From: Aquaticitalea lipolytica
GTDB lineage: Bacteria > Bacteroidota > Bacteroidia > Flavobacteriales > Flavobacteriaceae
DNA length: 64,000 nucleotides
Reading direction: 5' to 3'
NCBI RefSeq assembly: GCF_014641635.1
Contig: NZ_BMIC01000001.1
Location: forward strand, 62,001 to 126,000
Each line of letters starts with the position of its first letter. Within the stretch, counting starts at the first letter, position 1. The notes beneath the pieces were generated by a model. The model saw only the letters and a list, made by a program, of their open reading frames with translations. It did no database searches and had not been told where the DNA came from. Both the position numbers and the translations under genes were made by a program. Below are positions 6,650-30,369 of this stretch, one piece after another.

Positions 6650-6943
6650 ATTCTCGATACACTTCTCCTAAAGTCGAAGCACTCGAACTGACGTATTATT
6701 ACTATTCTTGTTACTCATCTTTTGTCACTTCGAGTAAAGCGAGGAACAAACCACTCTTTCGAGAAGTAAAAACTCAACTCCTCGTCACTTCGAGTGATGC
6801 TGAAGAATGAAGCATTGTATCGAGAAGCTATTTTCTCTTTAACTTGTTCTCGATACACTTCTCCTAATGTCGAAGCACTCGAACTGACGTAAATATTATT
6901 ATTCAAACTCACTTCGCTTAATGACGAAGCACTCGAACTGACG
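6650..6943 (-). repeat. Cluster of family A structured repeats (one full copy, several partial)
   Basis: Read on the minus strand, 6783-6889 is a full 107-base unit: GTCAGTTCGAGTG, a small hairpin, TGTATCGAGAA, an A-rich loop, TTCTCGATACA, hairpin ATGCT...AGCAT, then CACTCGAAGTGAC. Partial units lie on both sides. Two are left-end fragments (6650-6692 and 6911-6942) and one is a degenerate right-end fragment (6724-6775). Full copies also occur at 12115-12223 and 30173-30280. The stretch is open in frames encoding peptides rich in SSSASTLGEVYREQV, but this only reflects the repeat and I do not regard it as coding. Confidence 0.85.
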
Positions 6944-7808: not shown

Positions 7809-7913
7809 CTATTTGCGTGCTGCCTTTTTTGCTATTTTATCTGCTTTCTTTTCTTTAGCCGTTTTTGCTGGCTCTTTTTTTACATTTTTCTTAGCGTCTT
7901 GCGATTTAGCCAT
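7809..7913 (-). CDS. 34-residue Lys/Ala-rich basic small protein, copy 1
   Basis: ATG to TAG encodes MAKSQDAKKNVKKEP followed by AKTAKEKKADKIAKKAARK: 15 lysines, 9 alanines, no membrane segment and no signal. A second gene at 10296-10400 encodes exactly the same peptide with five synonymous codon differences and a different stop codon. That pattern shows selection on the protein. It is followed by its own terminator. The function is unknown. The strongly basic, helix-prone composition suggests nucleic-acid or ribosome association, but that is inference. It is too short for normal ORF calling. Confidence 0.78.
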   Translation of the reverse strand: MAKSQDAKKNVKKEPAKTAKEKKADKIAKKAARK

Positions 7914-7972
7914 CTTGTTTACTGTTTATAGGTTATTATCTGTGGTTCATTAATCGATACTAACATACTAAA

Positions 7973-10295: not shown

Positions 10296-10400
10296 TTATT
10301 TACGTGCTGCCTTTTTAGCTATTTTATCTGCTTTCTTTTCTTTAGCCGTTTTTGCTGGCTCTTTTTTTACATTTTTTTTAGCATCTTGCGATTTTGCCAT
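10296..10400 (-). CDS. 34-residue Lys/Ala-rich basic small protein, copy 2
   Basis: Encodes the same 34 residues as the gene at 7809-7913 (MAKSQDAKKNVKKEP...KKAARK) and ends in TAA instead of TAG. The five nucleotide differences inside the frame are all synonymous (two Ala, one Asp, one Lys and one Arg codon). Flanking DNA is not similar apart from each having a hairpin terminator. So the duplication is old enough for the flanks to diverge, or the coding part has been homogenised, while the peptide stayed fixed. The role is unknown. The two genes sit on either side of the FISUMP and T9SS genes, all on the same strand. Confidence 0.78.
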   Translation of the reverse strand: MAKSQDAKKNVKKEPAKTAKEKKADKIAKKAARK

Positions 10401-10665
10401 GATTTTTATGTTTTAAGTTATACGTTTTTTGTGTTGTTACTCGGCTTTTTAAAGCTGTAATTACCAATATTTAAATATAGTGAAAGTATTGTTAGTATAT
10501 AATATTTTTTATGATGAAGATGTATTATAATATCATAATGGTTGTATTGCTAATTATACCATTTTTGAAACCATAAAAGTTAAGGTTAATATAGCAGTAA
10601 GACTACCTTAAATGCTTATAATCAATAAGTTATTAACAATACATGTTTGTAATTTTTAAAAACAC
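10401..10665. other. AT-rich intergenic stretch with no gene seen
   Basis: Between the start of the small gene and the promoter of the HTH gene. I see no open frame with coding character, no hairpin and no repeat shared with the rest of the window. It must hold the minus-strand promoter of the 34-aa gene, but no consensus element stands out. Confidence 0.6.
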
Positions 10666-11830: not shown

Positions 11831-11960
11831 ACACTTGACACGTCATGACCTGTTATGATTGTTTGTGACCGTTTATGACTTATTATGACACGTTATGACA
11901 CCTAATGACCTATATTGACCTTTAATGACTGGTTATGACCGTTTATGACCTGTTTTGGCA
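11831..11960 (-). repeat. Array of 13 decamers in perfect 10-bp register
   Basis: Thirteen consecutive 10-base units with plus-strand consensus NNTTATGACC (minus strand GGTCATAANN). TGA is kept in 12 of 13 units and TGAC in 11; the first two bases are free and the outer units are more divergent. There are no insertions or deletions between units, so every TGAC faces the same side of the helix. It lies immediately upstream of the DUF6266 gene and may be a cooperative protein-binding array or a curved/flexible promoter element. Confidence 0.85.
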
Positions 11961-12060: not shown

Positions 12061-12223
12061 CGTCAGTTCGAGTGCTTCTACTTTAAGTGAAGTAATAATA
12101 CATACTGATTTTTACGTCAGTTCGAGTGCTTCGACTTTAGGCGAAGTGTATCGAGAACAAGTAAAAAAGATAAAAGCTTCTCGATACAATTTGCTCATTA
12201 TTCGCAAATCACTCGAAGTGACG
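12061..12223 (+). repeat. Family A structured repeat: partial unit then full unit
   Basis: 12115-12223 is a complete 109-base unit closed by CGTCAGTTCGAGTG and CACTCGAAGTGACG. Inside are an 11-bp stem TGTATCGAGAA/TTCTCGATACA, the small arm CTTCG...CGAAG and the arm ATTTGC...GCAAAT. A left-end fragment in the same orientation (12061-12092) precedes it. The rest of the 11961-12316 gap shows nothing further. Confidence 0.87.
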
Positions 12224-12316: not shown

Positions 12317-13237
12317 TTATTTACCACTTAGTTTTCTGTATTTTTTTATAACAGCCTCTAACATCTCTTTATAATTATTATGTATCATTTCGTCAGAATT
12401 TATATTATCCCAATCAAATTTTCCATTTCTATAAATCAATAAATCTTGTTTATAATAATTCCAATAATATTTAAACCAATCAAACTCAAATTCATTATAA
12501 GTATCCATCCACTTATCATAAACATTTTTGAGTTCACTTTGATTCATATTAAATCTAATAGAAACACGATTATCCTCAAAAACAACATCAACTTTATCAT
12601 AAAAATTTTCGCATATAGAATACCATAAGTTTTCTTTAATTTCTATTGGCTTAAACTTTTTATTTAAATAATACGTGTTTACTTCGTTACAAAAATCAAT
12701 CTCTAATTCTTCGTTAGATTTTATTACGTCAATATTGAAATTATTTGCTTTACTTGTTTCACTAACTTTTTCTAAATGAGCCCCATTAATTATCTCTCTT
12801 ATCTCATTTATAGCATCAGTAAAAACACTTTCATCATCATTAGATAATCCGAAACCATCAAACTCAATTTCTTCATGCTCATATTTATTTAATAATATTC
12901 CCATTTCTCTATTGTTTTTTTGAGAGTACTCATACAAGTTCATTGAACCAATAATAAGTAAATTACCATTGTAATAAGATTTGCAATGTATATTAGGATG
13001 ATGAAGCAAATTAATATTATCTAAAGCTAATAGCTTAGACTTTTCGTCATTTGATAACTTATCTTCTCTGTAAACTAAAACTATTTGAACACCTCTTTTG
13101 TTTGCCTTCCATAACGCGTTTAAAACATTTTTAGAAGTTTGTATATAAGGAACAATAATTATAAGTTCTTTTTCAGCTTCTTTAATTAATTTTGGTATCC
13201 AATAATTGAAACCTTCAGTATTTAAAAACAATGCCAT
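12317..13237 (-). CDS. Phospholipase D-like domain protein, putative nuclease
   Basis: 306 aa, cytoplasmic. Residues 10-120 form one PLD-like domain: PYIQTSKNVLNALWKA, then the catalytic HxK at 84-86 (NIHCKSYYNGN) with GSMN at 97-100 and E111 downstream. The Asp usually found five residues after the Lys is replaced by Gly, as in several PLD-like proteins linked to restriction and DNA repair. Residues 130-306 are an Asn/Glu/Trp-rich region of unknown fold. A single HKD motif implies a dimer if active. It is the last minus-strand gene of the island but is separated from the GIY-YIG gene by 460 bases holding a family B repeat, so it has its own transcript. A defence role is inferred from position only. 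Confidence 0.78.
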   Translation of the reverse strand: MALFLNTEGFNYWIPKLIKEAEKELIIIVPYIQTSKNVLNALWKANKRGVQIVLVYREDKLSNDEKSKLLALDNINLLHHPNIHCKSYYNGNLLIIGSMNLYEYSQKNNREMGILLNKYEHEEIEFDGFGLSNDDESVFTDAINEIREIINGAHLEKVSETSKANNFNIDVIKSNEELEIDFCNEVNTYYLNKKFKPIEIKENLWYSICENFYDKVDVVFEDNRVSIRFNMNQSELKNVYDKWMDTYNEFEFDWFKYYWNYYKQDLLIYRNGKFDWDNINSDEMIHNNYKEMLEAVIKKYRKLSGK

Positions 13238-13528
13238 TAAGTATGGGTTTAAAGTTTTACAATTTTAAAGTTTTCATTTAAAACAAATTAAAAAAATGTA
13301 TTAGTTTTTTAAGAAATATTTGTGTAATAAATGGAACTTAACAATCTTAATTTAGTTCACTTTCTTTAATTAAAAGACGTGAGTTAGGTATAACTATTTT
13401 TTTAATTTATTAACAATCAATTAATTATGAGTTATTTCAGGTTGAACGCAATCTAAACCCAATTGAAATTCTAGTTTTTAAAGACCTTTCAGCGGCTCTA
13501 AAGGTAAACCAAGCCAAAAAAGTCAAGT
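13238..13528. other. AT-rich spacer between PLD-like gene and repeat B
   Basis: It holds the unassigned minus-strand promoter of the PLD-like gene. TTTAAAGTTTT occurs twice just before that gene. Near 13505-13523 the sequence AAACCAAGCCAAAAAAGT resembles the DNA left of the second family B copy (29850-29870), so the repeat may extend this far. No gene is seen. Confidence 0.5.
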
Positions 13529-13698
13529 CGATTTGATGACGTTACTGCGTACCTCTCGCATTAGTTGTTTAATACTACTCCTCTCTTTTTAATAATTATA
13601 CTCCAATCCTTGATTTTGATTGCTAAGTCTACTCTACCGCTCGTTACGTCTACAAATCGTCGGTTTTTCCGACTTTGTCGGAATGGCAAGTGGGTTGT
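13529..13698 (+). repeat. Family B repeat, left copy
   Basis: About 170 bases closely matching 29968-30136 in the same orientation, beginning CGATTTGATGACGTTACTGC. Shared blocks include GCGTACCTCTCGC, TTAGTTGTTTAATAC, CTCCAATCCTTGATTTTGAT and CGCTCGTTACGTCT. It ends in short alternative hairpins (GTCGG...CCGAC...GTCGG). Its last base touches the stop codon of the GIY-YIG gene. Confidence 0.82.
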
Positions 13699-14537
13699 TA
13701 TTTTCGTTTTATCTCATCTAGAGTTTTACCATCTTTATCTTTCCATTCAACCCAGCCATTTGAACTATTCCCTTTAATTATGTCACTTGCTGCACTTGGA
13801 GTTGGAAAAATATAATCATGCAAAAAAACAAGCCTATCAGATTTACTGGCTATAATATTAAACTCTATTAGTTTTTGCCTAAAAGCTTTTTGAGTAGCTC
13901 TAAAAGAACCTGCTGTCTCTTTTCTTGCTTCAGAACCCTTTAAAATAACAAAGCCTTCGTCATTATATATGCCTTTTGCAACTAAGCCTTTAAATTTAAT
14001 ATAAAACTCATCAATATTAAGCTTAGTTGATTTTATGCCCTCTTCAAATATTGGAAAGCCTAAAGTTGCCAATAAAATTTTAATAGTTTCAAAATTATCC
14101 AACAAATCATATTTTCTACTTTCAGGTATTGAGGGTTCTTTTGAACTATTACTATTTTCTATAAGATAGCGGCCAATTTCTGCAGCCTTTTTTAAGCAAT
14201 AATGCTCTAAAAACTTACCTTCCGTTTTTGTGTATTCGTTTGTTTTTGTTATAACTACTACACAGTGTGTCCAAAAATCTTTTAATCTATGGTGTTCCTT
14301 TATTCTATCAAAGCACTCTTCTCCTTCTCCTATATAAACTAATGGAGCTTCATTTTCCTTTAAACCAAACAAAAAATAGACACCAGTAAAATGTACTAAT
14401 TCTCTTTTTGCGACTTCTTGCATTTTATTTCTTGGGAACAAAATAGCCTTGACTAATCTATTTGTGATTTCTGCTTCACGAATACTGGTTGGTGAACCGT
14501 CGGGAAGGAATATTTGAATGGTTTGTGGTCTACTCAT
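13698..14537 (-). CDS. GIY-YIG nuclease-family protein with C-terminal DUF4357
   Basis: 279 aa. The GIY-YIG fold spans about 48-130: GVYFLFG at 52-58, VYIGEGE at 67-73, Arg79 in the helix after it, and a Glu in the GKFLEHYCL helix as the likely metal ligand. Residues 205-265 match DUF4357 (GSEARKETAGSFRATQKAFR, DYIFPTPSAASDIIKG). This pairing is common for proteins encoded inside or beside type I restriction loci; its exact job is not known. The start codon overlaps the HNH stop by one base (TAATG), so the two are translationally coupled at the end of the seven-gene unit. Its DNA is as AT-rich as the preceding three genes. Confidence 0.84.
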   Translation of the reverse strand: MSRPQTIQIFLPDGSPTSIREAEITNRLVKAILFPRNKMQEVAKRELVHFTGVYFLFGLKENEAPLVYIGEGEECFDRIKEHHRLKDFWTHCVVVITKTNEYTKTEGKFLEHYCLKKAAEIGRYLIENSNSSKEPSIPESRKYDLLDNFETIKILLATLGFPIFEEGIKSTKLNIDEFYIKFKGLVAKGIYNDEGFVILKGSEARKETAGSFRATQKAFRQKLIEFNIIASKSDRLVFLHDYIFPTPSAASDIIKGNSSNGWVEWKDKDGKTLDEIKRK

Positions 14538-15553
14538 TATTTAATTAGTTTTAACTGCTTAGCAACATCTTGAGTCATTTTTGCTAATGGTCGTTTTAAA
14601 GAATCTTTTTGATTGGGATAATTTCTCAATAAAAAATGATAATATTCTTGTTTACTTTTAAATAACCCTTTTATTTTTAAATGACTTTTAGACAATTCTT
14701 TAGTATAAACTATTGCAAACTTTAAAAGATCTTCAGCTACATCATTATGTCTGTTATAAACACCATTTATATGGTACAGTTCGTTATGAGTGTTAACTAA
14801 ACCTAAAGGGTCTTTATGTATATTTGTGAATTCGATTTCAAGGTTCTGCTTATACAGATTATTTAATGTCAGAATTGAAGGATCAGGTATATATTTTAAT
14901 TTAAATTTTGCTAGATCAGCCAAATTCATAACATAAGGATGATAATGTTTATCTAAATTAAGATGTTTAGAACTTTTAGTACTATTACAATTTGCACATG
15001 ATGGAATTAAATTATAAAGTGAAAGTGATAAGTAAGGATATTCACTTTTAGGAAAAAAATGATCAAACTGAAATTTAGCAATCTGTTTACCAAATTGCTT
15101 ATTAGTTAAAATTGTATTTTGAGCATTACAATAAGGACATGTTTTAATATTTAATTGGTTAGCTAACCATATTCCTCTATCAACATTCGATCTAAAGCGT
15201 TCTGTATAGCCGAAAATATACATTAATTCATTTCCAAAGGCTGTCGTCACATCATTATGAAATATCTCTTCACCCCAATTATTTGTAGCAAAATGATCGA
15301 TAAAACTTTTAAGTTTTTTTGGTTTGCCTTTTATAATTTTGGAGAAATTATTGTGTAAATAATTCAATATCTCTATTTGAATAGCATTAGCATGAATAAA
15401 CCCTCTGGAATTACCAGTAGTAATAAAATTAGAAAGTAAATTTTCTGGTCTTTTGTTTTTTCTAAACTTACTTAAAAAATCATCCTCTAAATCAGAAATT
15501 TTTTTATAAGTGGATTTAGAATCAATTGGATAAATCCTATTAACTTTTATCAT
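14537..15553 (-). CDS. HNH endonuclease, PtuB-like partner of the upstream ATPase
   Basis: 338 aa. The HNH/zinc-binding core lies at 139-196: CPYC at 139-142, FDHFFPK at 163-169 carrying the catalytic His, and CANCNSTKSS from 186. The DHxxPK form with paired CxxC knuckles is the type found in PtuB nucleases of Septu and of retron-linked ATPase/HNH pairs. The N-terminal 130 residues are helical and probably bind the ATPase. The start overlaps the end of the ATPase gene by 14 bases, indicating coupled translation and fixed stoichiometry. By analogy the complex cuts DNA during phage infection; activity here is inferred, not shown. Confidence 0.85.
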   Translation of the reverse strand: MIKVNRIYPIDSKSTYKKISDLEDDFLSKFRKNKRPENLLSNFITTGNSRGFIHANAIQIEILNYLHNNFSKIIKGKPKKLKSFIDHFATNNWGEEIFHNDVTTAFGNELMYIFGYTERFRSNVDRGIWLANQLNIKTCPYCNAQNTILTNKQFGKQIAKFQFDHFFPKSEYPYLSLSLYNLIPSCANCNSTKSSKHLNLDKHYHPYVMNLADLAKFKLKYIPDPSILTLNNLYKQNLEIEFTNIHKDPLGLVNTHNELYHINGVYNRHNDVAEDLLKFAIVYTKELSKSHLKIKGLFKSKQEYYHFLLRNYPNQKDSLKRPLAKMTQDVAKQLKLIK

Positions 15554-17741
15554 TAGTACCTTTTTTTATTCTTTCTAATTCAGACTTTAGCCAATTTTCA
15601 TATTCATCCATATCATATATGGTATTCACATCAACTTCATAATAATCATTATACATATCTAATAATCTATCTCTAATAAGTTTGTCATCTAATAGATTAA
15701 TAAAATCTAACTCCTCAGTGTTTTCGTCATTTCTAACTGTTAATTTTAAATCTTGATTACCATTATATTTTCCAATTAACATTTCTATTTTTCTCTTAAC
15801 AAATTCACCAACAAAGCCGTTTTCAAGAAAAAAACTTGAACCAAGTAATTCGTGAATATTAGCACCAAAAGTTTTTTCTTGTGTACTTTCATTAGCTAAA
15901 CCTGTTGTTAAACGAAGTATATTATTATGAGTAATGTCAGAAAGAATAAATGGTGAATGTGTAGAAAATAAAATATTAATACCTTTAATATTTTTTATAT
16001 TGAGATTACTAATTCCAGTCAAAATCTCGAATAAAAATCTCCTTTGAAATTCAGGATGATAATACAATTCTATTTCATCAAATACTAAATTGACAAAGTT
16101 GTATTTGATCTTCTCATTTCCAGAATAAAAAACTGAATTTAAATTAATTATATGATAAAATATAGACTGTAGTGAATGTATAAAATGTTGCTCGCCTGAA
16201 CTTAGGTCATTAAAGCTTGAAATTGAGTTTGCGCAGTTATCATTTCTTATATATAAGTTGGGCCTAAAACAAGCCGCTGGTATTAGCTCTATTATATCAA
16301 ATCTTGAATTTTCATTTTTAATTTGTTTTATTCTATTAATAAAGCTGCTTATATCTAAACTGAAAAAGTGTTTTTTAATCTTATTAGGTATCTTTTGATA
16401 ATCATCAGCCTCTTCTTTCCATAAATTGTCATTAACCTCTCCAAGTGTATTGAATCTAATAGTGTTTAATACTTGCCTTAATTTAAGTGTTATGTGACTT
16501 CTATCATTCTTTAAATCTACTAAACGCCTAAATATTTGCCTAAAGTCAGGAACCCATTCACCTTCAACCTTTATAGTTTCAGCCTTATACTCATCGTAAT
16601 TAGAATATATTTTCAATATTTTACGATAGACATATTTTACCAACAAATCTGAATGTTTGACACTTTTTAAATCTATTCTTTCAATCCGAGTTTTACTTGT
16701 TGTATAAATCGCGTCATATACTTTTGTGATAAACTCAGAATCTTCTAAATCAAATTTTTTCTTAATGTTTGTAATCACGCTCTCAAGACCCAAAACTCCG
16801 TAAGTATTGAACATTGAATAATCAAGGGTAAATAATAACGAATCAACTGTTTTACCATTTACAACTTGTTTTATACTAAATGTATCATCTACAAGATTTG
16901 ATAATAATCTAGACTGTGCTAAATGAAGTTCTGAATTAACATCAATATTTCCATCCTGTCTAAATGGATTTATAACCAATGGTGTCTGATAACCATCATT
17001 TTTATGAAATAGATCATTTAACCAAGAATTATTATATCTCGCATTTAATCCATATAAGGAATAATTAATCGAAATAGTATAGAAGAAGAATTCATCAAAA
17101 ACATAATTAAATCTATCATCTTTTGATTCATCATATTTAAATGAACCATATTCATTGAAATTATCATCTTCAAAATCTTTACTCAACGATCTATGATATA
17201 TTTCTTGCTGACTATTATGCCATATTGAAAAATATTTCCCGTCAATTTCGTAATAGATCTCGACCATTAAATCTGAATATACATCTTGTATATCGTTAAT
17301 TTTTCCAAATAATTTGTTATGATCTATCTTACTATTGTTAATGAGTTTTATCCATTTAGTATGATCAGTTATTATTCCTTTTTTTAATGCGATAATGTAG
17401 CAAACACCATAAAGCAATTCTAATAAAGTACTTTTACCCGATCCGTTTTTACCAACTAATGCAGATACTTGAATATCGATTTTATGTCCATTAGATAAAG
17501 TAACTCCATATATATCATCTACAGTCTCTTTTACTTTAAGTATAGAATAAACATCATTATCAATTAGCTTACCATCTAAGTTTATAATTGTTAGGTTTTC
17601 TTTATTTAGGGCTTTACCATCTTTATCTAAAAACTCATAGTTCTGATAAAATTTATAGATTACACCTTTCTGCAGATTCTTACAGAAACGATCGTTACAA
17701 TTCAAAAAAGGTCTTACTGCTAATAATTTGAACCCAGCCAT
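15540..17741 (-). CDS. ABC/SMC-like AAA ATPase, PtuA-like (Septu-type defence)
   Basis: 733 aa. Walker A GKNGSGKS is at 97-104, the ABC signature LSSGEQ at 513-518, Walker B NLVFDEIE at 551-558 and the switch histidine STHSPF at 593-598. About 400 residues separate Walker A from the signature, more than in a transporter ATPase. They include a long helical segment (325-480), as in OLD/RecF/PtuA-type defence ATPases. The signature-LID-Walker B order and the HNH gene that overlaps its 3' end make a Septu (PtuAB) module the best match. ATP binding probably holds the HNH nuclease inactive until nucleotide levels fall during infection; that mechanism is taken from studied relatives. It starts one base after the upstream gene stops. 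Confidence 0.86.
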   Translation of the reverse strand: MAGFKLLAVRPFLNCNDRFCKNLQKGVIYKFYQNYEFLDKDGKALNKENLTIINLDGKLIDNDVYSILKVKETVDDIYGVTLSNGHKIDIQVSALVGKNGSGKSTLLELLYGVCYIIALKKGIITDHTKWIKLINNSKIDHNKLFGKINDIQDVYSDLMVEIYYEIDGKYFSIWHNSQQEIYHRSLSKDFEDDNFNEYGSFKYDESKDDRFNYVFDEFFFYTISINYSLYGLNARYNNSWLNDLFHKNDGYQTPLVINPFRQDGNIDVNSELHLAQSRLLSNLVDDTFSIKQVVNGKTVDSLLFTLDYSMFNTYGVLGLESVITNIKKKFDLEDSEFITKVYDAIYTTSKTRIERIDLKSVKHSDLLVKYVYRKILKIYSNYDEYKAETIKVEGEWVPDFRQIFRRLVDLKNDRSHITLKLRQVLNTIRFNTLGEVNDNLWKEEADDYQKIPNKIKKHFFSLDISSFINRIKQIKNENSRFDIIELIPAACFRPNLYIRNDNCANSISSFNDLSSGEQHFIHSLQSIFYHIINLNSVFYSGNEKIKYNFVNLVFDEIELYYHPEFQRRFLFEILTGISNLNIKNIKGINILFSTHSPFILSDITHNNILRLTTGLANESTQEKTFGANIHELLGSSFFLENGFVGEFVKRKIEMLIGKYNGNQDLKLTVRNDENTEELDFINLLDDKLIRDRLLDMYNDYYEVDVNTIYDMDEYENWLKSELERIKKGTNDKS

Positions 17742-17742
17742 A

Positions 17743-19491
17743 CTATTTATTTTTATTAAACCCTAACCACTTAAACTTTCTAACATCTTTAGAAATTTTT
17801 TTATGATGAGGTATATGTTTGTTAATAATAATACTTAATGGTGTTGCTGCTTCATGTGTTGTTTTAATTTTTGTAAAATCAGTAGCAGAAAAATGCATTT
17901 GAAATAAGTTAAACAGACATTGATCTCTATCAATAATTGATTGTTCAATATCCTGAAATTCAGAGATATTTAATATTGAAAGCGGCATAATTCTAATAGA
18001 TTTAAACTCTTTATCAATACCCTTTGCCGATAACATTTCATCAAATTTTTTCCTAAATGCTAGATTTGAAGGACCAAGACTGATAATAGGCTCATTTAAA
18101 AGAAGTAATGGGTAAATCTTTAATTTCCCTTTTTTCCTAAATTCAGGATCCTTGATGAAGGTTTTATACTCATTAAATTTAAACAGGGTCTTTTCAACTA
18201 ATTGCAAAAGACCAAAATCTTTATAAAATTGATTTACATTTATTTTATTAAAATCGGCAATTGTATTTACTGTTTTAAAACCATTAATTAATGGAAGATA
18301 GTTGCTTTTTGCTTCAATAAGTAAAACCTTATTTTTATACCTATAATAAAAGTCTGCATATTCAACATGACCCTTTCCATTAATATCAAAGGTCAGGTAG
18401 TCCTGATTTAAATAATTTACTCTTTTATTACTTGTAGAGATGTTTTTAAAAATTTCGTTTATGAAAGGTTCAAAGAATTTGTCTCCAATAAAATTACCCC
18501 AGTCTTTTCTATTGCAAATTACCTGTGGTTTTAAATAATCAAACCAAAAATCATTAATAAATAATGAATATATTTTCTCTAAAAAAAGTATCGAATCCAT
18601 TATGATAAAAGTATGAATCCCATTTTTGACACCACCGTCATAAACGGGACTTTTCTTTAACTCTAGAAAATCTAAAACATTTAAATCTGTATGAGCAGGT
18701 AATGGTATACCATACCTTTTTGATAACTCAGTTAATACCTGAATAGCCTGTGTATTCTTAACTTTTATCTTTAGATACGTTACCTTTAATTTGTCATCGT
18801 TACTGCCAAAGAATTGACCAATAATATATTTGAAAAACTCCGTAATATCATCTAAACCAAAAGTGATACTTAAATAATCTTTAAAATGGTTAGAAAAGAA
18901 ACTATCTGTTATCAATTTATCCATTAAATACCAGCCAATATAAAAGCGATTTAAAGGATGAGGAATAAAGTAATATTGGTTGTGAGGTAATTCTTTGAAC
19001 ATAAAATACTCAAAGAAACGTTTACCTAAAATTTTATGAGCATTTCCAGAGTAGGATCTATCAAAAAATAGAATTCTTTCATTACATATTAGTAAATATT
19101 TAAATAAATCAACACGCTGTTTAGGTGTATATTGTGGTGGTCTTGTTGCCACGAACCCACTAGTAGCCAATATTTCTTGATAAGCATACAAACATGTAAC
19201 CCTTGTAAATAGGACTTCGTTTTCTGGCATTTCCGAATATTGGCCAATGTATGGTGCTGCTATGCCACTTTTAATAGGATTTTCTAAATCCAAAAGAATT
19301 GCACGTAGTGCGTCTATTTGGTTTTCTTTTGAGTTATCAAAGCTTGTATTGAAAATTGGCTTCAATCTAGTATTAACTGCAGCAATTGAAGCAATTAATT
19401 CACCTTTAGGAATAGATTTAATAAGATTAATAGGATTAGCAGGAACCGAAGCATTAAAAAAATCTGAATATTTAATTGGACTGCCAAACAT
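17743..19491 (-). CDS. Unknown protein with a PD-(D/E)XK-like nuclease motif
   Basis: 582 aa, no signal peptide or membrane segment. I do not recognise the family. A stretch near the C-terminal third has the restriction-nuclease pattern: D380 (GHVEYADFYYRYKNK), then a hydrophobic strand VLLIEAKSN giving E393-x-K395, with E377 also available. The N-terminal 370 residues are helix-rich and aromatic-rich (FFEYFMFKELPHNQYYFIPH). It lies between hsdS (9-base gap) and the ATPase (1-base gap). It could be a third component of the ATPase/HNH module, a separate nuclease/toxin, or an accessory of the type I system. The fixed spacing favours the first. Base composition resembles the ATPase and HNH genes rather than hsdR/hsdM. 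Confidence 0.6.
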   Translation of the reverse strand: MFGSPIKYSDFFNASVPANPINLIKSIPKGELIASIAAVNTRLKPIFNTSFDNSKENQIDALRAILLDLENPIKSGIAAPYIGQYSEMPENEVLFTRVTCLYAYQEILATSGFVATRPPQYTPKQRVDLFKYLLICNERILFFDRSYSGNAHKILGKRFFEYFMFKELPHNQYYFIPHPLNRFYIGWYLMDKLITDSFFSNHFKDYLSITFGLDDITEFFKYIIGQFFGSNDDKLKVTYLKIKVKNTQAIQVLTELSKRYGIPLPAHTDLNVLDFLELKKSPVYDGGVKNGIHTFIIMDSILFLEKIYSLFINDFWFDYLKPQVICNRKDWGNFIGDKFFEPFINEIFKNISTSNKRVNYLNQDYLTFDINGKGHVEYADFYYRYKNKVLLIEAKSNYLPLINGFKTVNTIADFNKINVNQFYKDFGLLQLVEKTLFKFNEYKTFIKDPEFRKKGKLKIYPLLLLNEPIISLGPSNLAFRKKFDEMLSAKGIDKEFKSIRIMPLSILNISEFQDIEQSIIDRDQCLFNLFQMHFSATDFTKIKTTHEAATPLSIIINKHIPHHKKISKDVRKFKWLGFNKNK

Positions 19492-19500
19492 GAAATAATT

Positions 19501-20745
19501 TTATTTATGACTAATATTATAAGCCTCTCCATTCTCCGCAACCATACCCAACTCTTTTTCTGCTTCACCAACAGTAACCTGCCCATTCATCAACATCGGC
19601 AACAACCAATCGCGCAATTCGGTGAGTTCATGATTTTCAAATATATTATGTCTTATTTTTTTAAAAAATCCTTCAATAAATTTCTCAAATTTATTCGCCA
19701 CTTCAAGATGTGGTATAACTATTTTTGTGTCTTTTAAAAACTTAAAATGACGTGCATAACCATAATTGGATAAGTCAATTTTTAATAGTGCATGATAAAA
19801 TAGGTGTTGTGGCATTCTTGGATTATTGCTTAATAAAACTTGTGTTCCATCTGCACCTCTCGCAAAATCAAAATTGATTAATTTCACTATTCTAGTGTGA
19901 TCACCAAAAATAATTCTTGGCTCAATAGTATCGATTATAGATTCTTCTACATTTGTATAACCGCAAATAAACTTCATACTCTGATCAATTATTGGTATTT
20001 TCCCTTTATCTAAATATTCACTGGATGGAATTTTCTTTGTTTTATTATCTTTTGCTAAAAGGTTTTCTACAATGTCAAATTCCCATCCCTCTGGAATTTC
20101 ACGGTTCAATTCCTTATTATAAACCATTCTACCGCCAGACGATTTATAAGGCTTACCATTGGCATCTGGAAAATCAAACTGTACAAACCAATAATCGTAA
20201 AGTGTTTTTGCCATTGCTTCTAACTCTTGGTTTATTTTATTATTGACTTCTATTTTGGCATCTAAATCGGAAAGGACTTTGGCTATTTTTTTTTGATACT
20301 CAATTGAAGGAATAGGTAATTCAAAGTTTTTTAATGTCTTATCATTAACCCTTTTTCTACCTGATGTTCCCTCCATACAACTTATGGCGCGATTTCTAAA
20401 AGTTGGGCTAATGGCCAAATAGTAAATAAACTTACTATCCGTTAAATCTGTTTTCCGTAATACTATAAATTCAGAAGATCCAAAAGCAACTTCGTTATCT
20501 TTTAAAACATCAACATATGCAGTTTTTCCATTCTCTAAACAAGGTGTGATTTTGGCAACTAATGTGTCTTTATTTCTAAATTTTGGTCCACTATTATATT
20601 CCGATAATTCAAATCCATTTATTTTTCTTTGAAATTCAGTTAAATATCCCATTGGAATTTTCTTTACCAAACTTCCCTTAGTTATACTTTCAGGGGGATT
20701 AAATCTAATAGCTTTACCTATTGCTATTTTCTTCCAATTAATCAT
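19501..20745 (-). CDS. hsdS: Type I restriction-modification specificity subunit HsdS
   Basis: 414 aa with the usual two target-recognition domains (about 1-150 and 215-370). Each is followed by a conserved helix: LPIPSIEYQKKIAKVLSDLD with INQELEAMAKTLYDYWFVQF after the first, and a shorter version (FENHELTELRDWLLPMLMNG) after the second. These helices space the two half-sites of the bipartite target. Each domain reads one half, so the target is asymmetric; the sequence itself cannot be predicted. The start overlaps hsdM by 8 bases. There is one copy with no inverted partner nearby, so no sign of phase-variable shuffling. G+C drops within this gene toward the AT-rich genes after it. Confidence 0.93.
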   Translation of the reverse strand: MINWKKIAIGKAIRFNPPESITKGSLVKKIPMGYLTEFQRKINGFELSEYNSGPKFRNKDTLVAKITPCLENGKTAYVDVLKDNEVAFGSSEFIVLRKTDLTDSKFIYYLAISPTFRNRAISCMEGTSGRKRVNDKTLKNFELPIPSIEYQKKIAKVLSDLDAKIEVNNKINQELEAMAKTLYDYWFVQFDFPDANGKPYKSSGGRMVYNKELNREIPEGWEFDIVENLLAKDNKTKKIPSSEYLDKGKIPIIDQSMKFICGYTNVEESIIDTIEPRIIFGDHTRIVKLINFDFARGADGTQVLLSNNPRMPQHLFYHALLKIDLSNYGYARHFKFLKDTKIVIPHLEVANKFEKFIEGFFKKIRHNIFENHELTELRDWLLPMLMNGQVTVGEAEKELGMVAENGEAYNISHK

Positions 20746-22354
20746 ACCTCAAAGTCTTTAGATTAGATACAATCTCTTTTTCTAATAGTTTACTTTTATC
20801 AAAGAGGGTTTCTAAATTATTTTCAAAATCATGCATTTTAGACTCAAACTCTTTTGCTGTAATATCAATATATTCAATCTTCACTTCAAAATATTGACCT
20901 GCGCTTAAACTATAATTTTTGGTTTTGATAGATTCATAATTAACTACAACCGAGAAATCTTCAATGGCTTCCTTATTTGTAAACGTTGAAATTATAGTAT
21001 CCTCCTCTTTTGGAGATAATAGTGTTTTTTGATTTTTACCTTCTTTATTTGTTGTTCCTAAATTGGAAGCATCCATTAAAACAACATCACCTTTATTTGC
21101 GGCATCTAAAAACACTATTGATACATTGGTACCAGTAGTCGCAAAAATATTACTTGGCATACTTACCACACCAGCTAACATTTTACTATCTACTATTTTT
21201 TCACGTATTTTCTTTTCAATGCCAGACTGTGCAGTAATAAAACCAGTTGGCACGACAATAGCAGCTTTACCTGAGCCTTCTTTTAAGGAATAAATAATAT
21301 GTTGTAAAAACAAGGTGTAAATTGCCATGCTTTCCTTTTTCTTTTTAGGCACATTAGGGATGCCTGCAAAAAAACGAGCCTTGTTTTCTTTTTTATTAAG
21401 CGTATCTACATCATCACTAAAGTCTAATTTAAAGGGAGGATTACTCACTATATAATCAAACTGTCGCAGTTTGCTATTTTGTTTGTGGTAAGGATCTGTC
21501 ATGGTATTGCCTTGTATGACATTCTCAATACTGTGTACCAAATTATTTAGCACTAGGTTTAATCGTAACAGGTTTGACGACTTTTGAGAAATGTCTTGTG
21601 AATACACCGTACACTTATCTGGCCCAATAGCATGTGCTAAGTTCATTAACAACGTCCCTGAGCCTGCACTTGGGTCGTAAATAGTTACATTACTAGTAGG
21701 TTCTGGCACTAAAATATTAGCAATAATTTTTGATACCGCATGAGGTGTGTAATATTCGGCATATTTACCACCAGCATCACTGTTGTAATCTTTAATTAAG
21801 TATTCAAAAATAGTTGAGAAAAAGTCAAAGCCTTCTCCCATAATATTTTCAAAATTAAAGAGCGTAAGTTTGTTAAACAGGGCTTTGGCAAAGGCATCAC
21901 GTTTACTACTTACATATTCGGTTAGACGTTCAAAGAGTTGTATTTTTTGGCCATCTTCGGTCTTTACAGCAAATAAGTCGTTATTGCTTACCGCAATATC
22001 AATAAGCGTATCATCAACACGTTTTGCAAAATCTGGTTCTTCCTGTCTGTTAAATAAATACCCAATTAATTGATGTGGTTTTAAAAAGGCTGTAGACTCA
22101 CCCAATTGAAATTGCAAAAGTTGGTAGTCTGCATCTTTCATTTTGGCGATGTCAGCTTCCCAATTGTCGCTTGTTGCTAATTCTGGTTTTAGTTTTTTAA
22201 CTTCGTAAGCAAACTTATCGTTCAAAAACTTATATAAAAATACTTGGCTTATAATTTTAAATTCGTTGCCATCATTCCCTAAACCATAACTGGCACAAAC
22301 GGCTTTAAGCTCGTCTATTAAGGTTTTGGTTTGTGTTACAAAAGTGTCATTCAT
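20738..22354 (-). CDS. hsdM: Type I restriction-modification DNA adenine methyltransferase HsdM
   Basis: 538 aa. The N-terminal helical HsdM_N domain (about 8-150) is followed by the N6-adenine methyltransferase core. Motif I DPSAGSGT is at 227-234 (S-adenosylmethionine binding) and motif IV NPPF at 305-308 (catalytic). YAEYYTPHAVSKI at 198-210 is the usual pre-motif signature. The C-terminal region (460-538) forms a coiled coil that docks HsdS. It works as M2S for protective methylation and as part of R2M2S for restriction. It begins 9 bases after hsdR ends and overlaps hsdS. Assignment is firm. Confidence 0.95.
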   Translation of the reverse strand: MNDTFVTQTKTLIDELKAVCASYGLGNDGNEFKIISQVFLYKFLNDKFAYEVKKLKPELATSDNWEADIAKMKDADYQLLQFQLGESTAFLKPHQLIGYLFNRQEEPDFAKRVDDTLIDIAVSNNDLFAVKTEDGQKIQLFERLTEYVSSKRDAFAKALFNKLTLFNFENIMGEGFDFFSTIFEYLIKDYNSDAGGKYAEYYTPHAVSKIIANILVPEPTSNVTIYDPSAGSGTLLMNLAHAIGPDKCTVYSQDISQKSSNLLRLNLVLNNLVHSIENVIQGNTMTDPYHKQNSKLRQFDYIVSNPPFKLDFSDDVDTLNKKENKARFFAGIPNVPKKKKESMAIYTLFLQHIIYSLKEGSGKAAIVVPTGFITAQSGIEKKIREKIVDSKMLAGVVSMPSNIFATTGTNVSIVFLDAANKGDVVLMDASNLGTTNKEGKNQKTLLSPKEEDTIISTFTNKEAIEDFSVVVNYESIKTKNYSLSAGQYFEVKIEYIDITAKEFESKMHDFENNLETLFDKSKLLEKEIVSNLKTLRYD

Positions 22355-22363
22355 AGTTTTTTA

Positions 22364-25300
22364 TTATGCGGTTTTTCCGTGGTATTCATTAAGGTATTCT
22401 TCTACAATTAAGTTGCGTATAAACTCTATGGTATCTACATCCATTGGCGTTTCTAGCGTTTTATTAAACTCGGTAAACACTAGTTTAGCAACAATACGCG
22501 CAAAATAGCTTTCGTTATTTAAGCTGTCGTTCCTATCGAGTACAGCAATATCGGTTTGTGATTTTATGTTTTGTAAGGCCTCTATAATAGCTGTTTTTAG
22601 TTTTGATGGCTTGCCAGCTTCTATCAAACGTTTTTGTACACGTGCGTATTTGGCATCGCCATCATATTTATCTTTCAACAGGGCATTACGTCTGTTCAAT
22701 TCCTTTATTTTTTCATGGATGTTTTTTAAGGAGGTAATGTTTGTCTGCATCTCTTCCTGTGTTACTTCGTTTAAATTTTTGTCATCAAACAAACGACGTA
22801 ATTCTTCATATAAACTTATCCACTCAGGGTCTTTGGTATCAAAATTATTACCCAACGCTTCTCTGGTTTTTTTAAGGATGTCTTTAAGTTCGCCAGCAAG
22901 CACTAATTCATTCTCTCCAATTTTTCGGAATCCGAATACTATATCTTCTAATGCCATGTTGAGCAGATTACCAACATCTTCGTTTTGTTGTAAGGCCTCT
23001 TTAGCATTAATTAATGCTAAATGATTTACAGCTTCAATACGTAAGTCTCCTAGTTTTCTGAAATCCATTTTCTCTAAAAGCTCATACTCACCAACCAAAC
23101 GAATAATATTATATAAAGCGCGAGCATCTTCTAATGCTTTTTTAATTTTAAGCATCTCGCCATGATCACTAATTTGTGAGATTTGAGACGAGAAGTTTTC
23201 AGCATTTTTTAAATCGAAATCGGCAAGGGTTTCCTTAATTTCACGAATGGAAGCTTCCATTTCTTCACGTGTCATAAACAAATTAGAATAGCTTTCCATT
23301 TCGTCTCCTAAAAGCTCTTGCAACTCGTCAAAATAGGCTTTATTGGTTTTATCGAACTCTTTAGAGATGTCTGCAAAATCAACAACGTACCCGTATTTAT
23401 AACCCTTATATTTACGATTAACACGTGTTAAGGCTTGCAGTAAATTATGCGCTTTAATAACTCGCCCTAGATAGATTTTCTTTAAACGTTTTGCATCAAA
23501 ACCAGTAAGTAGCATATTGTAAACAAACAAAAAGTCAATCTTTCCTGCTTTGAAATCATCACGCCATTGTGTTAGATCGTCTTTACTACCAGAATCGTGT
23601 AAAATAAGTGCTGCTTTTTTAACGCGATAGTCTTCTTTGCGCAATACATTATATTTTTGATTGGGTTCTGCTGCCATTGGCATTGAAACATCATCAACTT
23701 CTGGATTAGCATATACACGGTTAAAAATAGCGTACATTTCTTCGGCCTGTTCGCTGCTATCGCAAATTACCATGCCACCAACACTTGCGTCGTTATTTCG
23801 TTGTCTAAACTGCTGGAAATCGTTAACAATATACTCTAGCATAGGAGCCACAAAGGAAGGATGTGAATACACTAGTTTTTTATTAGCATCCCCTTTTATA
23901 AAATCAATACTATCTAATGCTTTTTTAAGCAATATTTTATATTCAGTTTCAATTTCCTCACGAATGAGCTTTAATGTATAACCATCGGCTATCGATTTGT
24001 TATAGTAATACTTATGAATATAATTACCAAAAAGGTCTTTAGACTTTAAGCTATCACCTATTAGCGGTGTTCCTGTTAATCCAATTTTAATTGCATTACG
24101 ATCAGATTGTTGCAGATTAGCTAAAAAACTACCTTCTGGATTATAACTGCGGTGTACTTCATCTAAAAAATAAACGCGCTGTATATTAATATTGTAATCC
24201 GTTGTGGTACTAACATCAGGGTCGTTTTCAAACTTTTGGATGTTCACTACCGTAATTTCACGTTGACCTTTGTCATTATTAACTGCTGTGGTTTTCTTTA
24301 AGTCAGTTACAAATTCTTCTCTCGAATTTACGGTATGCACTTTAAGTCCGCGAGCCGTAAACTCATCACGTGCTTGGGTTAACAAATCTAAACGGTCTAC
24401 AATAAAGTAAAACTTCGGGATGATGTGTTGTTTCTGGAAATAATCCGTTAGAAAATGAGTGTTATAATATGCTAAAGCTGTTTTACCACTTCCTTGTGTG
24501 TGCCAAATAATTCCTTTACGAATGCCTTCATCCAGTTTTTGCTCTATGGCTTTTGTAGCAAACAATTGCGGATAGCGCATAATATGTTTTTGTAAACCTG
24601 ATGTTTCTTTAACATAAACCAAAGCATATTGCAACATAAACTTTAAGCGCTCTTTGCTCAATAAAGATGTTAACACACGATTGGTAGCCGAATTAGGGTT
24701 TTTGTTTGTAGTGTATTCAGCACTATTTTTTATAGAATGATAATTAGTGTCCTTAAGCAAAAAGTTCTCCACTTGTGTATCTAAAGGTCTCAGTTCCTTA
24801 GATAGATTAAAGCCAATTTCTTCTCTAAAATAATTGAATATAGGTTTGTGATATGATGGTGATGCATAAAAGGCACCTTGCCAAGGTTCAATCTCATTAT
24901 CATCGTACTCCATGTTATTAGAAAATAACATGAATTGAGTCATGTTTACAAACTTTCTAAATTTTTTATTCTGAAAACGAGATTCTATGCGGTCACGCTC
25001 GGCAATTACACCATCACGATTGTTTGGTTTTTTAACTTCAATAAATACCAATGGCATGCCATTAATTAAACAAATAACATCTGGTCTGAAATTATCTTCT
25101 CCATTCTGATATGGTAATTCAGTTACTACATGGAAGTCGTTATTATCAAAATTTTCAAAATCAATGAGTTTAACACCCGAACGGTTGGTGAGCATTTCAA
25201 AAAAGGCTTTACCTAAATCTTCATTTTCAAGAGCTAAATCAATTTCTTGATAGAGTCTGTTAATATCGGCTTCGGAAATACCTTTATTAATTCTTGCTAA

Positions 25301-25438
25301 GGATTTTTTAAATATATCCTTAAAAATATTGGTTTCTAAATCCCACTCAGCTTCTTTTAAAGACAGATACGTATACCCTAACTGAGTTAGGTGTAGTATT
25401 GCAGGTAGTTTTACTCTTGAGTCTTCGTTGAATGCCAT
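22364..25438 (-). CDS. hsdR: Type I restriction endonuclease subunit HsdR
   Basis: 1024 aa, the normal length. The N-terminal PD-(D/E)XK nuclease domain has D120 (NFRPDVICL) and E134-V-K136 (VFIEVKKPN). The SF2 translocase has Walker A TQGSGKT at 314-320, DEVH at 426-429, the IGLTGTP motif III, and RecA2 motifs LVYNMLLTGFDAKRLKKI and ALTRVNRKYKGY. The helical C-terminus (from about 730) binds HsdM. The enzyme moves along unmodified DNA and cuts at a distance. Here hsdR comes first in the operon, ahead of hsdM and hsdS. A small HTH-like gene precedes it by 31 bases and could regulate the unit. Confidence 0.96.
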   Translation of the reverse strand: MAFNEDSRVKLPAILHLTQLGYTYLSLKEAEWDLETNIFKDIFKKSLARINKGISEADINRLYQEIDLALENEDLGKAFFEMLTNRSGVKLIDFENFDNNDFHVVTELPYQNGEDNFRPDVICLINGMPLVFIEVKKPNNRDGVIAERDRIESRFQNKKFRKFVNMTQFMLFSNNMEYDDNEIEPWQGAFYASPSYHKPIFNYFREEIGFNLSKELRPLDTQVENFLLKDTNYHSIKNSAEYTTNKNPNSATNRVLTSLLSKERLKFMLQYALVYVKETSGLQKHIMRYPQLFATKAIEQKLDEGIRKGIIWHTQGSGKTALAYYNTHFLTDYFQKQHIIPKFYFIVDRLDLLTQARDEFTARGLKVHTVNSREEFVTDLKKTTAVNNDKGQREITVVNIQKFENDPDVSTTTDYNINIQRVYFLDEVHRSYNPEGSFLANLQQSDRNAIKIGLTGTPLIGDSLKSKDLFGNYIHKYYYNKSIADGYTLKLIREEIETEYKILLKKALDSIDFIKGDANKKLVYSHPSFVAPMLEYIVNDFQQFRQRNNDASVGGMVICDSSEQAEEMYAIFNRVYANPEVDDVSMPMAAEPNQKYNVLRKEDYRVKKAALILHDSGSKDDLTQWRDDFKAGKIDFLFVYNMLLTGFDAKRLKKIYLGRVIKAHNLLQALTRVNRKYKGYKYGYVVDFADISKEFDKTNKAYFDELQELLGDEMESYSNLFMTREEMEASIREIKETLADFDLKNAENFSSQISQISDHGEMLKIKKALEDARALYNIIRLVGEYELLEKMDFRKLGDLRIEAVNHLALINAKEALQQNEDVGNLLNMALEDIVFGFRKIGENELVLAGELKDILKKTREALGNNFDTKDPEWISLYEELRRLFDDKNLNEVTQEEMQTNITSLKNIHEKIKELNRRNALLKDKYDGDAKYARVQKRLIEAGKPSKLKTAIIEALQNIKSQTDIAVLDRNDSLNNESYFARIVAKLVFTEFNKTLETPMDVDTIEFIRNLIVEEYLNEYHGKTA

Positions 25439-25469
25439 ACTTTAATTAGATTGTTTTCTTATCTATAAA

Positions 25470-25703
25470 TTATAAGTTTTCTTTTACAGATACATATTGT
25501 GAAAGTTTGACTCCTTTACTTATTTCTGTACCAAAAGATTCTGGGATTTTTGCGGCTTTTGCAATCTCTTTTTTGTTGAATTTACTCAGTTTAATTTGAG
25601 TTGCATACTTTATACCAAATACATGAATCATAGCAACTGCTTCTCCTTTTGGTGCATTATGATATAACTTTCCTAAAACTGCACCTAATTCGTTTATTGT
25701 CAT
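25470..25703 (-). CDS. Small HTH-like protein upstream of the restriction operon
   Basis: 77 aa: MTINELGAVLGKLYHNAPKG at the N-terminus, then a helix-turn-helix-like region (FNKKEIAKAAKIPESFGTEI). It ends SKGVKLSQYVSVKENL. Proteins of this kind often sit directly before type I restriction genes in Bacteroidota and are annotated only as HTH-like. It may act as a controller that delays restriction until methylation is established, by analogy with C proteins of type II systems. It is 31 bases before hsdR on the same strand. A 19-bp palindrome about 84 bases upstream of its start is a candidate operator. No biochemical function is known to me. Confidence 0.72.
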   Translation of the reverse strand: MTINELGAVLGKLYHNAPKGEAVAMIHVFGIKYATQIKLSKFNKKEIAKAAKIPESFGTEISKGVKLSQYVSVKENL

Positions 25704-25786
25704 ATTTTATATTTAAAAAATAATCTATTAGTTGTAAAAATAGAAATTCTTACAAGAGTTCTTTATAAAAAATCGTAATAAAAACC

Positions 25787-25805
25787 CTTTAGTTATTAAC
25801 TAAAG
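25787..25805. promoter_or_regulatory. 19-bp perfect palindrome between the amidohydrolase gene and the RM operon
   Basis: CTTTAGTTA T TAACTAAAG, 9-bp arms around one central base. On the minus strand it is followed by GGGTTTTTATT, so it could end the amidohydrolase transcript. It also lies in the promoter region of the HTH-like gene (start 25703), so it could be that protein's operator. The remaining 25704-25890 spacer holds no gene. Confidence 0.55.
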
Positions 25806-25890
25806 TTTTGGTTAATTGTGTCAACAAATTAATCCGTTGTAAGGGAGAGTTTAAATATAGTATTTTTTTGAAATGGTTGTTATAAAATTA

Positions 25891-27720: not shown

Positions 27721-27739
27721 GGTGTGGTTGTATTAATGC

Positions 27740-29506: not shown

Positions 29507-29800
29507 TATGTTGTTGTTTTGGTTACAGAAATCAAATACCACTACAACATACCTTAATAACCACTATAAATAGCAGCTTGATGGTATGCAAATAGTTGGT
29601 GTCAACAACAGTTATACGAATCCTTACTAATGAGAATTGTTAGTCTTTGTATGGATTAAAAGTAATAAAAATAACTATCCGTTTATCGATAAGGTGAAGG
29701 ACTTGTTAACAGGTGTTCTTTATAAGTTAAACATTTACAAGGTTTTATCTGTGGTGTTTTGTATGTGTTGTGGGTTGAAGTTAATTTTTTGTGATGATTC

Positions 29801-29927: not shown

Positions 29928-29967
29928 TGAACCAAAACATCAATACGATTTAGCTACGCTGAATCTT

Positions 29968-30136
29968 CGATTTGAGGACGTTACTGCGTACCTCTCGCGT
30001 TAGTTGTTTAATACTTCTACTCTCTTTTATAACTATGCTCCAATCCTTGATTTTGATTGCTAAGTTTACTTTACCGCTCGTTACGTCTGCAAATCGTCAT
30101 TCTTTTCCGACGTGGTCGGAATGTCAAGTAGATTGT
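29968..30136 (+). repeat. Family B repeat, right copy
   Basis: Matches 13529-13698 in the same orientation, with point differences and a few small gaps. The terminal hairpin is kept with a changed loop (CCGAC GTG GTCGG versus CCGAC TTT GTCGG). Together the two copies frame a 16.4-kb segment carrying the GIY-YIG-to-hsdR unit and the amidohydrolase pair. Open frames across it are repeat-derived. Confidence 0.82.
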
Positions 30137-30172: not shown

Positions 30173-30369
30173 CGTCAGTTCGAGTGCTTCGACTTTAGGC
30201 GAAGTGTATCGAGAACAGGTTAAAGAGATAAAGCTTCTCGATACTATTTGCTCATTATTCGCAAATCACTCGAAATGACGATAGATGAGCAATGTGTTAT
30301 ACTTCTCGATACAATGCTTCATTCTTCAGCATCACTCGAAGTGACTATAGTATGGTGCCTCGGAGTGAC
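30173..30369 (+). repeat. Family A structured repeat: full unit then partial units
   Basis: 30173-30280 is a full 108-base unit with the same arms as the copy at 12115. It is followed by a right-half fragment at 30301-30345 carrying the alternative arm ATGCT...AGCAT, and by a remnant CTCGGAGTGAC (30359-30369) that ends two bases before the acs stop codon. It lies 36 bases right of family B copy 2. Confidence 0.86.

Follow-up and report, generated by a model that had tools for sequence, protein, structure and literature searches.

Tagged-hairpin dimers beside a flavobacterial defence island: probable recognition sites of a clade of small GIY-YIG nucleases

The question raised by this locus is what kind of element a short, foldable intergenic repeat without an open reading frame (ORF) is, and to which enzyme it belongs. 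The window, by which we mean the whole 64-kb stretch of Aquaticitalea lipolytica DNA that was analysed, holds three full copies of the repeat, 107-109 nt long, at 6783-6889 (minus strand), 12115-12223 and 30173-30280. A first-pass annotation, made from the sequence alone, placed three intergenic copies at these coordinates and read them as a nested, three-arm cloverleaf, either a non-autonomous REP/MITE-like element or a structured RNA or DNA. The positions and the intergenic setting of all three copies are correct. So is the outer arm, CGTCAGTTCGAGTG with CACTCGAAGTGACG, which is paired at 13 of 14 positions, the odd position being a G.G mismatch (G.A in the copy at 30173). The 11-bp arm TGTATCGAGAA/TTCTCGATACA pairs perfectly in the copies at 12115 and 6783 but shortens to 10 bp at 30173. 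Both small inner arms, CTTCG..CGAAG and ATTTGC..GCAAAT, are present, except that ATGCT..AGCAT replaces the second in the 6783 copy.

Each window copy consists of two inverted (facing) copies of one 44-47 nt unit. This two-unit composition went unseen in the first pass, and an inverted dimer yields the cloverleaf fold automatically. The unit follows the formula YGTCA-NTTC-GAG-(variable hairpin)-CGA-GAAN'; its parts are the YGTCA tag, a 4-bp stem capped by a GA/GA tandem plus a G-C pair, and a variable apical hairpin. In the copy at 12115-12223, the left unit reads CGTCA-GTTC-GAG-TG-CTTCGACTTTAGGCGAAG-TGTAT-CGA-GAAC and the right unit, read on the minus strand, CGTCA-CTTC-GAG-TG-ATTTGCGAATAATGAGCAAAT-TGTAT-CGA-GAAG. 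A spacer of 18-20 nt separates the two units of these ORF-less dimers. Extra single or decayed units flank every dimer, bringing the count to about eleven, grouped in three clusters (6650-6943, 12061-12223 and 30173-30346). At three or fewer mismatches, CGTCAGTTCGAGTG is matched 12 times in the window, compared with 1.1 expected matches; the strict unit pattern has 11 matches in the whole genome, 8 of them inside the window. The features are as follows.

6650-6693, minus strand: single G-type unit, ending GAGAAT; the ADH start codon is 4 bp away
6723-6766, plus strand: diverged C-type unit (TGTCA-CTTC-GAG..CGA-GAAG)
6783-6827, plus strand: C-type unit of the third dimer
6846-6889, minus strand: G-type unit of the third dimer
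6910-6943, minus strand: decayed G-type unit, only the 5' part
12061-12093, plus strand: decayed G-type unit, only the 5' part
12115-12158, plus strand: G-type unit (CGTCA-GTTC-GAG..CGA-GAAC), left half of the dimer
12159-12176, no strand: A-rich spacer, 18 nt; by the layout of autonomous elements, the site of their GIY-YIG ORF
12177-12223, minus strand: C-type unit (CGTCA-CTTC-GAG..CGA-GAAG), right half of the dimer
30173-30216, plus strand: G-type unit of the second dimer
30234-30280, minus strand: partner unit of the second dimer, with N = T and N' = G (wobble pair)
30302-30346, minus strand: single C-type unit beside the second dimer, its end 25 bp from the acs stop codon

In the cloverleaf, the outer and 11-bp arms pair unit 1 with unit 2, and each small arm corresponds to the apical hairpin of one unit. 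DNA folding gives the cloverleaf as the minimum-energy structure in all three copies (z = -7.7, -7.6 and -6.5; 0 of 200 shuffles fold equally well; about -29 kcal/mol for the dimer at 12115), which counts against the explanation that we prefer below. With RNA folding parameters, the three-arm form survives only in the 6783 copy. For the analysis of co-variation, units were collected from public genomes with patterns left free at N (the base after YGTCA) and N' (the base after GAGAA), together with loci from other searches. N and N' are Watson-Crick partners in 420 of 472 unique flavobacterial units, compared with a mean of 193 and a maximum of 223 in 1000 shuffles; the pairs are G-C, C-G and A-T, and T-A is seen as well. 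This co-variation supports a stem within the unit, NTTC/GAAN', followed by the GA/GA tandem and the G-C pair. An apical helix of at least 6 bp is formed by 80% of units (37% with the arms swapped, 11% after shuffling). Of the 472 unique units, 458 have T or C directly before GTCA; the inner part of the unit measures 12-64 nt, and a conserved tail is absent.

Pairing of the cloverleaf outer arm requires that N be the same base in the left and right units. This is found in 4 of 64 facing-pair loci, whereas 23 are expected (P about 2e-8). The arm positions do co-vary, as the first reading required, but inside the unit; the variable position of the cloverleaf outer arm avoids pairing, which argues against the cloverleaf as the selected structure. 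The conserved structure is therefore one tagged hairpin per unit, and the long hairpin between units is kept imperfect. Neighbouring units within 80 bp are inverted in 160 cases and on the same strand in 39.

The partner first proposed for the repeat was a RAYT (TnpA-REP) transposase, with the dimer as a GTAG-type REPIN, and intergenic inverted pairs of tagged hairpins do look alike. The tag here is YGTCA rather than GTAG, however; the A. lipolytica genome contains no Y1 transposase, 0 of 30 Y1 loci in relatives are flanked by a unit, and the presence of Y1 genes in relatives has no link with that of units (P = 1.0). Movement of the dimers by a RAYT is thus very improbable.

All-against-all clustering of the ORFs near units yields a small GIY-YIG nuclease whose gene lies amid them. 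The associated proteins form a clade (clade A) of nucleases of about 95 aa (ORF about 290 bp) that occurs across the Flavobacteriaceae. They match the Pfam GIY-YIG family, and the invariant Tyr, Arg and Glu are intact. The nearest relatives of an AlphaFold model (pLDDT 84.5) are UPF0213, Slx1 and the UvrC N-domain, and the closest solved structures by both sequence and fold are the UPF0213 / YazA proteins 1zg2 and 1ywl. In a blind test, 397 genomes of the family were searched with a profile of 13 clade proteins, and loci were ranked by score regardless of units. All of the 50 best clade-A loci have units within the fetched 1.9-3.4 kb, as do 43 of 43 after removal of the loci that supplied the profile or had been seen previously. 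Among the controls, units occur at 2 of 20 lower-scoring sister GIY-YIG loci and 0 of 30 Y1 loci, and the reversed pattern gives 0. Genomes with the clade carry a mean of 11.4 units and genomes without it 1.35 (P = 3e-4; for presence, P = 0.004).

In the usual full element, the ORF starts 5-30 nt after the end of one unit, and an inverted unit lies a few nt past the stop codon. The two ends are distinct: among the 28 elements in which facing units adjoin the ORF, 23 carry a C-type unit (N = C) on the upstream side and a G-type unit (N = G) on the downstream side. On the protein tree, whose short alignment leaves many forks unresolved, the unit label changes 5 times, compared with 40 when shuffled. 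The clade-A nuclease is absent from the A. lipolytica genome (99.99% complete), where the best profile match (9.9e-14) lies outside the clade, and many other unit-bearing genomes likewise do without it, which weighs against the explanation favoured below. The genome's own GIY-YIG gene at C2:89091 was considered as a partner and rejected, being outside the clade with no units nearby.

One unit usually stands just upstream of the nuclease start codon, and the units also fold as hairpins in RNA. They might then serve chiefly in RNA or in transcription, as terminators, as stabilisers of 3' ends, or as an auto-regulatory hairpin ahead of the nuclease ORF, with their spread incidental. We consider this improbable: the units are tied to a single nuclease clade rather than to gene ends generally, both unit orientations and arrays occur, and pairing between units is avoided. 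A search of Rfam gives no match anywhere in the window, the full dimer included; an Rfam structured RNA and a tRNA-like element were both considered and rejected, neither giving a match.

Homologous repeats exist across related flavobacteria, where the first-pass annotation had advised searching for them. The unit pattern is present in 28 of 99 relatives (reversed pattern, 0), in genera that include Maribacter, Polaribacter, Tenacibaculum, Winogradskyella, Flavobacterium and Chryseobacterium, and the number of units per genome ranges from 1 to more than 60, some in long arrays. At 62 isolated dimers or elements, there is no target-site duplication above chance and no flank preference besides the Y of the tag; classic (cut-and-paste) transposition is therefore not indicated. 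Of the marks of a classical MITE, the inverted ends are present and the target-site duplication is absent from these 62 pairs; of those of a GTAG REP or REPIN, neither the tag (YGTCA here) nor flanked Y1 loci (0/30) are found. The broader description as a non-autonomous, REP/MITE-like repeat without an ORF is borne out.

One genome (G048, loci L354-L363) has about ten near-identical copies of about 200 bp in which the dimer is nested in an outer palindrome, GGGTGCAATTA...TAATTGCACCCA. These copies are often at contig ends and resemble a separate recent mobile element that carries the dimer; as the dimer rides within the larger palindrome, they were rejected as proof of unit mobility. Locus L236 (G014:C15:33000-38000) is a long unit array with a period of about 181 bp. 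It includes two GIY-YIG ORFs of equal size and score at a distance of 1036 bp, and is probably a recent tandem amplification of the unit-ORF segment.

The best explanation, to which we give a probability of about 0.7, is that the tagged-hairpin dimers are recognition sites of the clade-A nuclease and that the window dimers are miniature derivatives. We infer both cleavage and mobility. The units would fold into hairpins in single-stranded DNA (e.g., the lagging-strand template, DNA under repair, or DNA taken up in transformation), and the GIY-YIG enzyme would nick at the unit hairpin. GIY-YIG enzymes are not known to catalyse strand transfer, so the spread of units would need host repair. Repair of the break with another unit as copying template or annealing partner would multiply units and whole elements, and recombination between units would join or swap the intervening DNA. 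The window dimers keep G-type and C-type ends (with the T variant as partner at 30173-30280) and have a spacer instead of the ORF; judged by this layout rather than by shared internal sequence, they are likeliest to be deletion derivatives of a unit-ORF-unit element. They may have been spread in trans by an enzyme since lost, or imported with island DNA, and either origin would fit the position of the dimers at defence-island edges.

GIY-YIG is a classic homing endonuclease fold, and the autonomous element is laid out precisely as a facing C/G dimer whose spacer holds an ORF; dimers without an ORF are common. The dimer could accordingly be the ancestral empty site, its spacer invaded by a homing-type GIY-YIG gene, in which case the window copies would not be deletion derivatives. 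This order of events is unlikely. Nuclease-bearing genomes are richer in units, which homing into fixed sites would not yield, and in some arrays (e.g., L236) the unit-ORF segment itself is tandemly duplicated.

Several known systems come close to this one. Di Nocera et al. 2013 describe a super-family of CGTC-tagged REPs, in species that include S. meliloti, Neisseria and Bacteroidetes (Gramella forsetii), for which a dedicated enzyme or transposase is reported to be absent (PMC3733652). The same authors find "no obvious explanation" for the excess of heterodimers among CGTC REPs, suggest for heterodimers generally that an imperfect hairpin gives protection from removal, and identify the CGTC-1 repeats of Neisseria as dRS3 (PMC3733652). 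The flavobacterial units share with CGTC REPs an unpaired CGTC/TGTC tag at one hairpin end, inverted dimers that are often heterodimers, and the lack of an adjacent Y1 transposase. CGTC REPs have an 8-9 bp stem that begins with A-T pairs, a 4-5 nt loop and a CCA-like tail, whereas the units have a 4-bp stem, the GA/GA tandem with its G-C pair and a variable apical hairpin, with no CCA tail. The units also have a GIY-YIG partner, in contrast to the CGTC REPs as reported. Like REPIN/RAYT systems (PMC3116915, PMC3733652), they combine an enzyme gene flanked by tagged hairpins with dispersed, gene-less inverted pairs; unlike them, the enzyme is GIY-YIG and not HUH/Y1 in fold and chemistry, the tag differs, and a Y1 partner was sought and not found. 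The UPF0213 / YazA proteins are nearest in structure, but the B. subtilis yazA locus has a housekeeping context and no tagged hairpins.

A 2025 paper reportedly describes Ssn, a group of GIY-YIG superfamily enzymes in Neisseria that act as site-specific single-strand nucleases and have a repeated target, NTS. The resemblance lies in a small, stand-alone GIY-YIG protein with intact motif residues (clade A, absent from the window's genome) and in a cognate short repeat that both adjoins the gene and is dispersed in many copies. The flavobacterial system differs in its clade and unit sequence, in the distinct left and right units around the ORF, and in its ORF-less miniature dimers. If that description holds, enzyme and repeat are already established as a pair in Neisseria. 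The additions of the present analysis would then be the hairpin family of the flavobacteria, an element of unit, ORF and unit whose two ends differ, dimers that lack the ORF, and a connection with the CGTC REP super-family. Our literature search found no paper linking GIY-YIG genes with REPs, and of the 20 listed papers in which part of the unit sequence is printed, none is about bacterial repeats.

The repeats of a sister clade (clade B), of the form TGTCA-GGCT-GAG-CGCAGT-CGA-AGCC, are a second repeat family that obeys the same hairpin rule. Among 120 B-type units, collected without demanding complementarity, the four stem positions are complementary in 89, 94, 98 and 101 (shuffled maxima 54, 49, 76 and 79), so that all four beat every shuffle. 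The general pattern YGTCA-s4-GAG-loop-CGA-s4' is present at 50 of 50 clade-A loci, 19 of 20 clade-B loci and 10 of 27 other GIY loci, compared with 0 of 30 Y1 loci and 0 for control tags. Sister GIY-YIG nucleases with repeats of their own (TGTCA..CTGAGCGCAGTCGAAG, CTGAGCTTGTCGAAG) are seen at loci L306-L325, L208 and L209. Of 16 GIY-YIG loci outside Bacteroidota, classic CGTC REPs adjoin the ORF at 6 (Rhizobium, Sinorhizobium, Neorhizobium, Sphingobium, Neisseria and Photobacterium), where the layout is mostly the same; the N. gonorrhoeae homolog is surrounded by CGTCATTCCCGC.. repeats. Tagged hairpins are absent at 10 of the 16 loci, so the wider rule is valid only for part of the GIY-YIG family. 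On a Planktothrix plasmid (L371:1501-1785), a GIY-YIG gene lies in a defence neighbourhood, between an MmeI-type restriction enzyme and DISARM drmA.

A tentative extension, on which we are almost evenly divided but lean against, is that the CGTC REPs of several phyla make up a second, RAYT-independent REP system. Each small GIY-YIG clade would co-evolve with its own tagged hairpin, and the system would comprise clade-specific hairpins, full unit-nuclease-unit elements, and orphan dimers, these being miniature derivatives that act as joints for the entry of foreign islands into the chromosome and for their exit. For a repeat class published as enzyme-less, the data point to a dedicated partner enzyme. 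The pairing of clade and hairpin (43/43), the unlike ends and the avoided pairing make the questions of the CGTC REP enzyme and of the heterodimers directly testable. The data suggest that stem variants and nuclease clades correspond by a code, from which new site-specific single-strand nucleases could be drawn, and they offer a lead on what borders the defence islands of flavobacteria.

Two direct copies of the unit dimer bracket the defence island of the window (12317-29542, about 17 kb). The island encodes a type I R-M system (hsdR 22364-25438, hsdM 20738-22354, hsdS 19501-20745), a PtuA/PtuB-like ATPase-nuclease pair (15540-17741 and 14537-15553), a PDC-S14 protein and a PLD protein. In a congener (G001), the order is acs, 1.2 kb, the ADH gene, and then homologs of window 10401-8559; relative to this order, the window has the defence block of about 17 kb after acs, and the ADH gene and the 8.5-10.4 kb block are swapped. 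The three unit clusters fall at the synteny joints (4 bp from the ADH start, at the left end of the island, and 25 bp from the acs stop), and the region from 33.8 to 43.5 kb, largely collinear with G001, is free of units. This arrangement fits a role of the units as joints for the exchange of DNA between them, in one genome comparison that leaves the cause unproven. No empty site was found in the comparison with the congener; the acs and ADH genes align and the intergenic DNA does not.

Other repeats occur nearby. A direct repeat of about 140 bp (13528-13668 and 29967-30105, 88-94% identical) lies near both island ends, just inside the unit clusters, and is perhaps left over from integration or from a duplicated gene end. 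Beside a DUF6266 gene, 100 bp before a unit cluster, a tandem array with a 10-bp period (TGACNNNTTA-like) occupies 11836-11960. A 119-bp direct repeat, 91% identical, is found at 7810-7928 and 10297-10415.
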